A DNA stretch of 64,000 nucleotides from Niastella koreensis GR20-10 (GTDB lineage: Bacteria > Bacteroidota > Bacteroidia > Chitinophagales > Chitinophagaceae): the NCBI RefSeq assembly GCF_000246855.1, contig NC_016609.1:1178001-1242000 (forward strand), read 5' to 3'. This document shows positions 46,033 to 49,560 of this stretch, one piece after another. The position numbers were made by a program, and so were the translations under genes. A model generated the notes under the pieces. The model had not been told where the DNA came from. It searched no databases and saw nothing but the letters and a program-made list of their open reading frames with translations. The stretch's first letter is position 1. Each line of letters starts with the position of its first letter.

Positions 46033-49000
46033 TTATGCGACCTTATAAGCTCCTTTCGCCGCCTGCACGCTTCCTGTGCGCTTCAGTACACCCCAGCCCT
46101 GTAATTCGCCTTTAATCGCTTTCAGGTAGGCTTTGAACAATACTATCAGCATCAGCCAGCGGTATATAAGCCGTTGTGGTATTAACCATAACAGGCGCGA
46201 TTTCTTTTCTTTTTCAAAATGAAAGGCCATTACCGATACCGCCACATCTACCAGCATGAATAACCCGTAATAAACCAGGATGTGGCCTGCGTTACCGGTA
46301 AGTATGCCAATCAGCATAAAGATATCTGCCACGGGGGCAAAGGCCGGTATAATGAACTGGAACAGCAGGATATTGGGGAACGCCGCCCAGCCCAGGGCCT
46401 TGCACTCTTTATTGAACAACACCTTGCGATGCTTCCAGAAGGTTTGCATTACCCCAAAGCTCCAGCGAAACCGTTGTTTTATGAACATCTTTACCGATTC
46501 TGGCGCTTCGGTAAACGCCAGGGCCTCGTGTTCATTGGCAATGGTATACCCCTGCCGCAAAATGCGTACACTCAGGTCGCAGTCTTCAGCCAGGGTATCG
46601 GTGGTAAACCCGCCGGCGTCCTCAATGGCCTGTTTGCGGAAGGCCCCAATGGCGCCAGGCACTACCGTAATGGCATTCAGCCAGGCAAATGCTCTGCGGT
46701 CGAAGTTCTGGCTGGTAATGTACTCGATACTTTGCCAGCGGGTGAGCATGTTCACCAGGTTACCCACTTTTACGTTACCGGCTACGGCGCCAACGACGGC
46801 CTCCCCCCGGCCCCCTCCGGTGGAGGGGGAGCCAGATACCTCGCGACTAATAGCTTCGGGATCTGAATGCAAGAGTTGGGTGTTGCCAAACTCCTCCCCC
46901 ACCGGGGGAGGCTGGGAGGGGGCCAAATGCCTCATCATCTTAGGTATAGCATCGGGATGCAGGTGCGTATCGGCGTCGATGCATATTACATACTCAGCTT
47001 TCGATTCTTTTATCCCAAAGTTCAGGGCCGATGCCTTGCCGCCATTGGGTTTGGTAAATACTTTTACCCTGGGATGGCCTTTAAAGGCATCGTGTATTTT
47101 TTCATATGTACCATCCTTACTGCCATCATCAACAAAAATGATCTCTGTATTGGGCCAGTTTGTTTTTAATAAGTTGTGTACCGAGTTAACGGCATTCACG
47201 GCCTCGTTGTAAGCAGGTACAATGATGGATACCAGCGGGTAATTGGTGATCGCGGGCCATACCACTAGTTTTTCCCTGCGGCGTTGCCGGGTGGCCAAAA
47301 AGGCCAGGAATGTCAGGCGGGCCATAGACAATACAATGAACACCACAAACAGGAAGAACAGGATCTTGCCGGCCCAATACCCCGATTCGGCCAGCAGGTA
47401 ATTCAATTGTACCAGGTAGTAATCTTTGCCCTTGGGCACAGCCGGCATCAGCTCGGCTTTTTTCTTACCCAGCAGATCAGCAATTGTGGTGAACTGGTAG
47501 CCCCGGCTTTTAAAATATTCAATAATGCGGGGCAGGGCCTTGATGGTTTCACTGCGGGTATCGCCCCCGGCATCGTGCAATAAGATAACGTTACCGCTTA
47601 ACCCGGCAGCTGTAAGGTCCTGTTTGCGTTTGATGGTCCTGGCTACAATGCTGTCTGCAGTTACGCCAGGTTCCCAGTCTAGCGGGTCAACGGATTCCCC
47701 TACATCCAGGTAATTCTTGGTGCGGGCAATGGCCACAGGCAACAGCTCTTCCATTTTCTCCGGTTCAAAATCGGCATTGTAAGGCGCCCTGAACAGGATG
47801 GTGGAGTGGCCGGTAATACATTCCAGCAACAGGCGGGTGCTTTCCATTTCAAGCAGCGCCCGTTTGGGTGAAATCTCTGCCACGTTAGGATGGGTAAAGG
47901 TGTGGTTGCCCAGTTCGTACCCTTCCTTATACATACGTTTTACAATGGGAATATTTTTCTCGGCATTGATGCCCACCAGGAAGAAGGCGGCAGGTACTTT
48001 TTCTTTTTGCAGAATATCCAGCACCTGGGGTGTCCAGGTGGGGTCGGGACCATCGTCAAAAGTAAGCACCAGTTTTTTAGGGTCGGCGGTACCGTATTTT
48101 TTAACCACGAACATGCTTGGCAGGCTATCGTAACGTTCTTCGCTGATGAGCATATCGGAGCTGTCTATCTCAGGCGTAATTTTGCCATCCACTGGTGTGC
48201 TCAGGATATCCAGGATCTCGCCTTCACCCATATAATCCACATCGTTGCTCGATTGTACACGCGTAAATTTTTTAAAGTCGAAGTTAGCCAGCGCCTGTTT
48301 TTCCATGTCCTGGTTGTAGAACTTCCAGATGCGGCTGTCTTCACTGCCCAGGCGCCACAAGGCGGTGCCGGCCAGTCCATATTCAGTAGCAAAACGCAGA
48401 CTGTTAAACGTGCTGGCCGCATCCATAAAATAAACCTGGTGCGGTTTATCATCATCGTCGTAATAACTGTAATGAAGGTTGTATGAGTTGTTATCGAAAT
48501 CGATAACCCCTTCCGATTCACGGGCGGTAGACAGGGCCTGCTGATACGTGATGTTGGTAGCAGCGCCATGCTGCGGCCAGTCGTACCCATATGCCGCCAG
48601 CGACAATATCAATTTGTCGGAGGGGATCTTGCGGGCCACTTTATCAACAGCACTCTCTATCCATTGCTGGTGGGCAATAGGGCCGGGACCGGTATGATCG
48701 GCATACTGGTCGTACGCCATCAAAAAGATGTAGTCGTTGTATTTGGCCAGTTCGTCATAATTGTAATCTTCGTTGAAGGGCGAAATATCCTGGGTTACCA
48801 GCAGGCCTTTTGCGTGCAGGCGGGTATACAGTTCTTTCTGAAAGGCCACCAGGGGCTCATCTGAATCTTCCTTCAGTTCTTCAAAGTCAACGTTCACCCC
48901 AATAAAATGATTCTTTTCAAGGATGTTGATCACATCGTTGATCAGCTTTTCTTTTTTGGCCGCGTTGGTAAGAATGCGGTGTACCGGTTCGCCCAGAAAT

Positions 49001-49560
49001 TCAGTTTTATAGTTGTTGGAGAGAATAGGCATAATGGGCACGCCGCTTTTTTTCATGATGGCCAGCGCCCGGTCATCTACCGAAGTGGTAATGGTATCGG
49101 CCTTGGGATCAATGAACATCCATTCAGGGATCACCAGGTTGAGGTTGGAAATATTCCTTTGCAGCGAATAGAACGATTGCGGGTCCCAGGCTACATAAAA
49201 GGCGGAACGGATACCACAGGGAAACCGGTTGAACGAGGGATAAGCCGGTGGCAACTGGTATTTGGGAGCGGTAGGCGCCAGCAGGGCGGCTTTCTTTTCC
49301 GCGGCTTTCTTTTCTTTATGTCTGATGTATTTCTCAAAACCGGGCGCCCATTTTTTTGAAATGGGTACATCGTTTTTGTCGGGAAGGCCATTGGTTAATT
49401 GCGCCGTGTTCTTATTCAGGTTAGGAATGGCGGGTGTATAAACCTGGTTCAGCGCTACGATCAGCACGGTGGCTGCGAAGATCAGGCCCAGTAGCAAGAA
49501 GAGTAGGGTCCACTTGAACTGGTTCCATCGGGTGGATGAATTGGTCTGGAAAATTTGCAT
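46033..49560 (-). CDS. GH18 domain - polysaccharide deacetylase - GT2 synthase fusion
   Basis: An 1175-residue membrane protein with three enzyme domains. After one N-terminal helix (about 17-38) comes a GH18-type barrel (about 115-430) with the catalytic pattern 'GVNVDFEEL' (Asp225, Glu227). The NodB deacetylase follows (about 490-700) with 'TFDDGPD' (Asp502, Asp503) and 'HTFTH' (His553, His557). After a helix near 735-760 comes a processive GT2 domain with 'FVDDGSKDG' (Asp811/812), 'DAD' (862-864), 'AEDCDLS' and 'QRFRW' (1029-1033), then more helices to the end. It is predicted to make, deacetylate and cut an N-acetylglucosamine-type polymer at one site. Residues about 879-918 look like an inserted repeat. 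Confidence 0.9.
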   Translation of the reverse strand: MQIFQTNSSTRWNQFKWTLLFLLLGLIFAATVLIVALNQVYTPAIPNLNKNTAQLTNGLPDKNDVPISKKWAPGFEKYIRHKEKKAAEKKAALLAPTAPKYQLPPAYPSFNRFPCGIRSAFYVAWDPQSFYSLQRNISNLNLVIPEWMFIDPKADTITTSVDDRALAIMKKSGVPIMPILSNNYKTEFLGEPVHRILTNAAKKEKLINDVINILEKNHFIGVNVDFEELKEDSDEPLVAFQKELYTRLHAKGLLVTQDISPFNEDYNYDELAKYNDYIFLMAYDQYADHTGPGPIAHQQWIESAVDKVARKIPSDKLILSLAAYGYDWPQHGAATNITYQQALSTARESEGVIDFDNNSYNLHYSYYDDDDKPHQVYFMDAASTFNSLRFATEYGLAGTALWRLGSEDSRIWKFYNQDMEKQALANFDFKKFTRVQSSNDVDYMGEGEILDILSTPVDGKITPEIDSSDMLISEERYDSLPSMFVVKKYGTADPKKLVLTFDDGPDPTWTPQVLDILQKEKVPAAFFLVGINAEKNIPIVKRMYKEGYELGNHTFTHPNVAEISPKRALLEMESTRLLLECITGHSTILFRAPYNADFEPEKMEELLPVAIARTKNYLDVGESVDPLDWEPGVTADSIVARTIKRKQDLTAAGLSGNVILLHDAGGDTRSETIKALPRIIEYFKSRGYQFTTIADLLGKKKAELMPAVPKGKDYYLVQLNYLLAESGYWAGKILFFLFVVFIVLSMARLTFLAFLATRQRRREKLVVWPAITNYPLVSIIVPAYNEAVNAVNSVHNLLKTNWPNTEIIFVDDGSKDGTYEKIHDAFKGHPRVKVFTKPNGGKASALNFGIKESKAEYVICIDADTHLHPDAIPKMMRHLAPSQPPPVGEEFGNTQLLHSDPEAISREVSGSPSTGGGRGEAVVGAVAGNVKVGNLVNMLTRWQSIEYITSQNFDRRAFAWLNAITVVPGAIGAFRKQAIEDAGGFTTDTLAEDCDLSVRILRQGYTIANEHEALAFTEAPESVKMFIKQRFRWSFGVMQTFWKHRKVLFNKECKALGWAAFPNILLFQFIIPAFAPVADIFMLIGILTGNAGHILVYYGLFMLVDVAVSVMAFHFEKEKKSRLLWLIPQRLIYRWLMLIVLFKAYLKAIKGELQGWGVLKRTGSVQAAKGAYKVA
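46809..46924. mobile_element. Palindromic repeat element inserted in frame in the GT2 domain
   Basis: 116 bp bounded by 10-bp perfect inverted repeats, GGCCCCCTCC at 46809-46818 and GGAGGGGGCC at 46915-46924. Two internal perfect 8-bp hairpins lie at 46811-46829 and 46893-46911. On the coding strand it is read as low-complexity Pro/Gly/Ser residues ('PSQPPPVGEE', 'SPSTGGGRGE'), which break a domain that otherwise runs from 'MRHL' to 'VGAVAGNVKVGN'. It looks like a small non-autonomous REP- or MITE-like unit. No target duplication is evident. Confidence 0.65.

Follow-up and report, generated by a model that had tools for sequence, protein, structure and literature searches.

A palindromic insert read in frame within a glycosyltransferase gene of Niastella koreensis, probably derived from a DUF559 nuclease cassette

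The window, meaning the whole stretch of DNA analyzed here, comprises 64,000 nucleotides of Niastella koreensis GR20-10, a bacterium from soil (NC_016609.1, positions 1,178,001 to 1,242,000). It contains a gene for a fusion protein with Pfam matches to GH18 (residues 194-405), Polysacc_deac_1 (491-595), Glycos_transf_2 (778-879) and Glyco_tranf_2_3 (777-1036). A palindromic insert lies between two catalytic motifs of its family 2 glycosyltransferase (GT2) domain. The features, in window coordinates, are as follows.

46033-49560, minus strand: host gene, a GH18 - polysaccharide deacetylase - GT2 fusion of 1175 residues (open reading frame and Pfam)
46969-46977, minus strand: DAD motif (residues 862-864), unaltered, on the upstream side of the insert, invariant in 28 orthologues
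46462-46476, minus strand: QRFRW motif (residues 1029-1033), unaltered, on the downstream side of the insert; its Q, both R and its W do not vary among 28 orthologues
46798-46926, no strand assigned: in-frame composite palindromic insert, residues 879-921, LAPSQPPPVGEEFGNTQLLHSDPEAISREVSGSPSTGGGRGEA, recognized by its inverted repeats and missing from orthologues except that of N. yeongjuensis
46798-46831, plus strand: unit A, GGCCTCCCCCCGGCCCCCTCCGGTGGAGGGGGAG, hairpin core 46811-46829, the "right end" of a cassette, 0 mismatches to the type A consensus
46832-46857, plus strand: right-end tail, CCAGATACCTCGCGACTAATAGCTTC, with 7-nt spacing to CCTCGCGA as in intragenic copies
46891-46924, minus strand: unit B, GGCCCCCTCCCAGCCTCCCCCGGTGGGGGAGGAG, hairpin core 46893-46911, the "left end", sense in the host gene

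The insert of 129 bp is an inverted pair of REP-like palindromes, with unit A opposed by the inverted unit B, and encodes 43 residues in the frame of the host gene. Unit A is antisense to the host gene, with the peptide SPSTGGGRGEA. The perfect 10-bp inverted ends (46809-46818 and 46915-46924) and the two hairpins with perfect 8-bp stems (46811-46829 and 46893-46911) are present as described in the first-pass annotation, which had delimited a unit of 116 bp at about residues 879-918. The palindrome is real but the unit is larger: additional perfect arms occur at 46799-46807 and 46904-46912, and since a 34-nt inverted repeat with 79% identity spans 46798-46831 and 46891-46924, the bounds were set at 46798 and 46926, corresponding to residues 879-921. 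The predicted RNA fold of the insert has z values of -4.3 and -5.1, and none of 200 dinucleotide shuffles was equally stable. Translation predicts that trypsin would release the peptides HLAPSQPPPVGEEFGNTQLLHSDPEAISR and EVSGSPSTGGGR from the GT2 protein.

The gain of the insert is seen in the distance from the DAD motif to the following GN: about 40 Bacteroidota orthologues have 27-34 residues there, Longitalea arenae has 42, and N. koreensis and N. yeongjuensis, the two species with the insert, have 66. In the approximately 40 other orthologues the loop is present and the insert is absent. The single contig of N. koreensis (9,033,684 bp) was searched by pattern and by BLAST with mismatch limits, and about 57 hairpin cores were found, the majority outside long open reading frames (ORFs). 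As the reversed pattern gave only 3 matches, compared with tens for the real pattern, the palindrome is not a product of chance. The earlier proposal that the gene acquired a small repeated palindrome in frame, and with it a new linker, is thus borne out by the copies in the genome, many of them intergenic, and by the gap in the orthologues; no homologue was found to share the Pro/Gly-rich loop of the insert with unrelated DNA.

Two types of unit were distinguished, A (GGCCTCCCCCCGGCCCCCTCCGGTGGAGGGGGAG) and B (GGCCCCCTCCCGGCCTCCCCCGGTGGGGGAGGAG), many of which are followed by a tail containing CCTCGCGA. This motif lies 7 nt from the hairpin in 12 of the 13 intragenic copies with a recognizable tail, and mostly 8 nt from it in intergenic copies. 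Intergenic units are often followed by tails rich in TTAAC or GTCAAC near gene ends, which are possibly terminators or the marker of another subfamily. Rfam returned only sub-threshold matches to microRNA precursors, chance hits caused by the hairpin. Palindrome copies occur in seven of the ten genomes of the genus Niastella, and close copies are rare beyond it, any being found in 10 of 103 genera, Niastella included.

In the seven genomes, 42 of 55 copies deep in long ORFs use one of the six possible frames, a count that includes orthologous and hence non-independent copies. After collapsing by gene, 19 of 28 cluster-frame combinations fall in the favored frame (binomial p 2.4e-9 against an expectation of 1/6), which reads SPSTGGGRGEA in type A and SSPTGGGREGA in type B. 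An artefact of stop codons was considered and rejected as the cause of the bias, since none of the six frames of the unit is closed by a stop; nor is hydropathy clearly worse in the frames other than the favored one. The host proteins include UvrA, alpha-2-macroglobulin, IleRS, MetH, IcmF, PaaB, PaaA/PaaC, MiaB (assigned by its radical-SAM, UPF0004 and TRAM domains), a UvrD-type helicase, a pseudouridine synthase, aspartate-semialdehyde-dehydrogenase-like and FecR proteins, and a ligase-associated helicase together with DNA ligase. The neighboring genes for the latter two (6.284-6.290 Mb) carry in-frame palindromes in several species, and in another genus the ligase-associated helicase has a DUF559 cassette at a different site. 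In orthologue alignments, units are present in some species and missing or decayed in others within the same variable loop; the insert in IleRS, expected to yield the tryptic peptide NSSPTGGGR, was found only in N. koreensis. Loops in genomes without close copies are more similar to the unit peptide than are shuffled versions of the same loops (p 0.001-0.002). Judging from the alignments, roughly 9-20 nt of the host loop seem to have been exchanged for the insert. MetH of Niastella consists of two ORFs, a homocysteine methyltransferase of about 350 residues and a pterin/B12/activation protein of about 912 residues, both of which have palindromic inserts in some species.

The same palindromes bound a longer element. 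In IcmF of four genomes, including N. koreensis and N. yeongjuensis, an in-frame DUF559 domain lies between two inverted units, which in N. koreensis have 0 mismatches to the consensus; IcmF of the remaining relatives has a short linker at the cassette site and no DUF559. DUF559 (PF04480) is a Vsr-like PD-(D/E)XK nuclease domain. The icmF gene of N. koreensis (near 8.2325 Mb) is frameshifted into ORFs of 189 and 1162 residues close to an A7 run just after the left palindrome, whereas in three relatives it forms a single ORF of 1281-1294 residues; the frameshift may reflect a mutation, a slippage site or a sequencing error. A tblastn search with the IcmF DUF559 domain gave matches in 101 of 197 Chitinophagaceae genomes, many of them in ORFs of more than 1000 residues. 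DUF559 is found in frame in IcmF, MetH, LeuRS (at two sites), MetG, CinA, adenine deaminase (AdeC), chorismate synthase (AroC), IspG, HsdR and the ligase-associated helicase, and at the N-terminus of a homoserine kinase ORF. One LeuRS contains two cassettes. In most of the proteins scanned the model of the host family is split into at least two pieces around DUF559, and Pfam and NCBIfam scans identified only the host family and DUF559, with no splicing (Hint) domain. Across the phylum, DUF559 occurs in 222 of 395 genomes; by hand count, about one third of the best matches listed lie in ORFs of at least 350 codons. In one LeuRS, a composite without the nuclease, LLPSSSQGGG...SLSFGEGRGEA, adjoins a DUF559 cassette that ends in the same way and closely resembles the window element.

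Hairpins at both ends are common among these cassettes. With a perfect GC-rich stem of at least 7 bp as the criterion, stems were present on both sides of DUF559 at 17 of 24 loci of the phylum sample and at 10 of 25 loci of Chitinophagaceae (on at least one side at 21 of the 25). Among controls, such stems were found at 0 of 22 and 0 of 18 loci and in 10 of 700 random spans. In a separate count of inserted cassettes, hairpins were found on both sides in 27 of 52 and on at least one side in 47 of 52, where shuffles lead one to expect none. Many standalone DUF559 genes of the phylum also have matching hairpins on both flanks.

The palindromes of the Niastella cassettes belong to the same family as the window units, and the window insert has the units and the right tail in common with the cassette without encoding a DUF559 domain. 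All three solo-palindrome sites in Niastella MetH (AKEAV..EFF|, YAIKKYFND| and LADFIKP|) lie within 0-5 residues of positions occupied by DUF559 cassettes in other genera. At the right ends of the IcmF cassettes, CCTCGCGA and the hairpin are separated by 7 nt, as in nearly all intragenic copies with a recognizable tail, and the right tail in the window agrees with the right end of the IcmF cassette at up to 18 of 26 positions, compared with a maximum of 15 in 2000 shuffles. From the MetH sites, the 7-nt spacing and the right-tail match, the window element is most readily interpreted as the two ends of a cassette minus the nuclease. It is probably a MITE-like derivative of a mobile cassette composed of a palindrome, a DUF559 ORF and an inverted palindrome. 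The term non-coding repeat used in the first-pass annotation is then probably wrong for this copy, since it has the tail and the frame of the end of a coding cassette. Arguing against this reading are the weak agreement of the left-end tail with the cassette (9-10 of 26 positions), the lack of a DUF559 cassette in any of the GT2 orthologues examined, the presence of only a single DUF559 gene in N. koreensis, its IcmF ORF being frameshifted, and the lack of close palindromes at the standalone DUF559 genes of Niastella. Three of the ten genomes of the genus (three of the nine relatives) contain no close copies by the pattern used, and orthologue DNA comparisons revealed no clean target-site duplication; both findings also count against it.

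It is rather unlikely that the palindromes spread independently, by replication slippage, gene conversion or another enzyme, with DUF559 as a passenger that tolerates the same loops. The loops of GH43 and IcmF, where one species has type A and another has type B at the same site, fit conversion or turnover. Synonymous divergence of the units is also low, with differences at 30 of 165 fourfold sites as against 249 of 602, but this comparison is biased and was not taken as proof, since the units were picked for their likeness to the consensus. Independent spread does not agree with the paired and often matching hairpins that flank DUF559 throughout the phylum, in frame as well as standalone, nor with the coincidence of solo sites and cassette sites, both of which are in keeping with a cassette origin.

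A classical REPIN, that is two inverted REPs copied in trans by a RAYT (a Y1 tyrosine transposase), would account for inverted REP-like hairpins with a short spacer in tens of mostly intergenic copies, and Y1_Tnp genes do occur in the N. koreensis genome. Nevertheless, in 10 genomes no unit was found within 1.5-4 kb of the Y1_Tnp loci examined, where the best matches were at shuffle level, and none of the 10 genomes lacks Y1_Tnp genes, not even the three without palindrome copies. The units meet the description of a REP in being GC-rich imperfect palindromes of 20-40 bp with many, mostly intergenic copies, but they end in GGCC/AGCC and in GGAG followed by TTGGCAACCTCGCGA and lack the GTAG or CGTC tag. 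An origin by RAYT was rejected, as no unit was found near the Y1_Tnp genes examined and copy number is not linked to the presence of the gene; the REPIN explanation as a whole is unlikely.

We regard it as quite improbable that the insert has been retained for a benefit, as a functional linker or as an mRNA hairpin that adjusts how strongly the synthase is expressed. Its length is identical in N. koreensis and N. yeongjuensis despite a dS of about 0.75 in the remaining gene, its own dS is only 0.19, approximately four-fold lower, and its fold is highly stable. However, its amino acid sequence changes rapidly (dN 0.108 versus 0.040 in the remaining gene), every other relative lacks the insert loop, and the identical peptide occurs in unrelated proteins. 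The combination of low dS and raised dN indicates that the insert evolves unlike ordinary coding sequence, and coding constraint was rejected as the reason for the conservation of the units. Recent turnover, conversion or constraint at the DNA level may underlie this pattern.

Inactivation of the synthase, suggested earlier because the insert sits inside the GT2 catalytic domain, is very improbable and finds no support in the data, as the frame is open, the DAD and QxxRW motifs are unchanged across 28 orthologues, dN/dS between the two species is about 0.05 for the gene minus the insert, and the predicted fold is intact. AlphaFold2 predicts a confident GT2 fold around a disordered loop: residues 884-919, preceded by a helix and followed by a strand, are the sole internal stretch with pLDDT below 50, and further disorder is predicted only at the C-terminal tail. 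By sequence and model, the GT2 synthase carrying the insert is undamaged, and the insert is apparently a tolerated surface loop, predicted to be disordered, in an otherwise intact enzyme. An ordinary expansion of a low-complexity loop with an incidental palindromic look, for which the varying loop lengths of the orthologues might speak, has a negligible probability in view of tens of near-identical copies, many of them intergenic, and inverted units with common tails.

With the cassette origin as the preferred reading, the following course of events is proposed. The DUF559 protein would recognize and cut palindrome-connected DNA and thereby spread the element, so that DUF559 would drive its mobility, and copies devoid of the nuclease would be spread by the protein in trans. 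The cassette ORF would continue through the right palindrome into the host gene in one frame, which would explain why most intragenic copies are in a single frame. Insertions in housekeeping genes would survive only if the frame stays open and a soluble, flexible loop of Ser, Pro and Gly is formed. Loss of the nuclease would result in composites, as in the window, or in solo palindromes, and both would then decay to ordinary loops. A broader interpretation, which we offer tentatively and rate at somewhat below an even chance, is that of a selfish element distributed through the phylum Bacteroidota, in which DUF559 is enclosed by inverted REP-like palindromes and which homes into conserved genes in frame, without splicing, and leaves palindromic coding scars, DUF559 being the mobilizer of one large set of REPs.

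In the "REPtrons" of the REPIN/RAYT system, the gene of the enzyme is flanked by inverted REPs and many copies lack the enzyme. The DUF559 gene is likewise flanked by inverted REP-like units and accompanied by many enzyme-less copies, but its product is a DUF559/Vsr-like nuclease instead of a Y1 transposase, and in many cases the unit lies in frame within a host gene. With MITEs the window element shares the terminal inverted repeats and a longer, gene-bearing relative, the IcmF cassette; a clean target-site duplication was not seen in the orthologue DNA comparisons. As in inteins and homing endonucleases, a nuclease domain resides in frame in essential conserved genes at recurrent sites. The DUF559 cassette differs in that it has no recognized splicing domain in the proteins scanned, is bounded by palindromes and apparently stays in the mature protein. 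This suggests that DUF559 in LeuRS, MetH, MetG or CinA is a guest and not a part of the enzyme, a status with consequences for annotation, for protein engineering and for work on the origin of new loops.

Palindromes in frame have been a curiosity since the Rickettsia palindromic elements (RPEs), and we know of no enzyme that explains them. The literature searched, in which subscription journals were poorly covered, contained no link of DUF559 to palindromes or to in-frame insertion; given this incomplete coverage, it is weak evidence that the tie of the palindrome to a phylum-wide DUF559 cassette is undescribed. Taken by itself, the palindrome is a further example of an already known kind. 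RPEs are in-frame palindromes in unrelated conserved genes and encode a conserved peptide (Ogata et al. 2000, 2002, cited after PMC10969869). By this description the Niastella palindromes resemble them, being in frame in unrelated genes with a conserved peptide, but they occur in another phylum, have units of about 34 nt compared with about 150 bp in RPEs, and are tied to a cassette that encodes a nuclease and has these units as its ends. Intragenic REPs with GTAG/CGTC tags were described in uvrA, DNA ligase and helicases of Opitutus terrae (Di Nocera et al. 2013, PMC3733652). They too are short GC-rich hairpins inside ORFs, single or as inverted dimers, and the classes of host genes are strikingly close (uvrA, DNA ligase, helicase, tRNA synthetase and pseudouridine synthase; PMC3733652). 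The Niastella units differ from them in having neither the tag nor a RAYT, with the DUF559 nuclease in its place; cassettes that end in the same palindromes and occupy the same sites in housekeeping genes offer a testable source for intragenic REPs.
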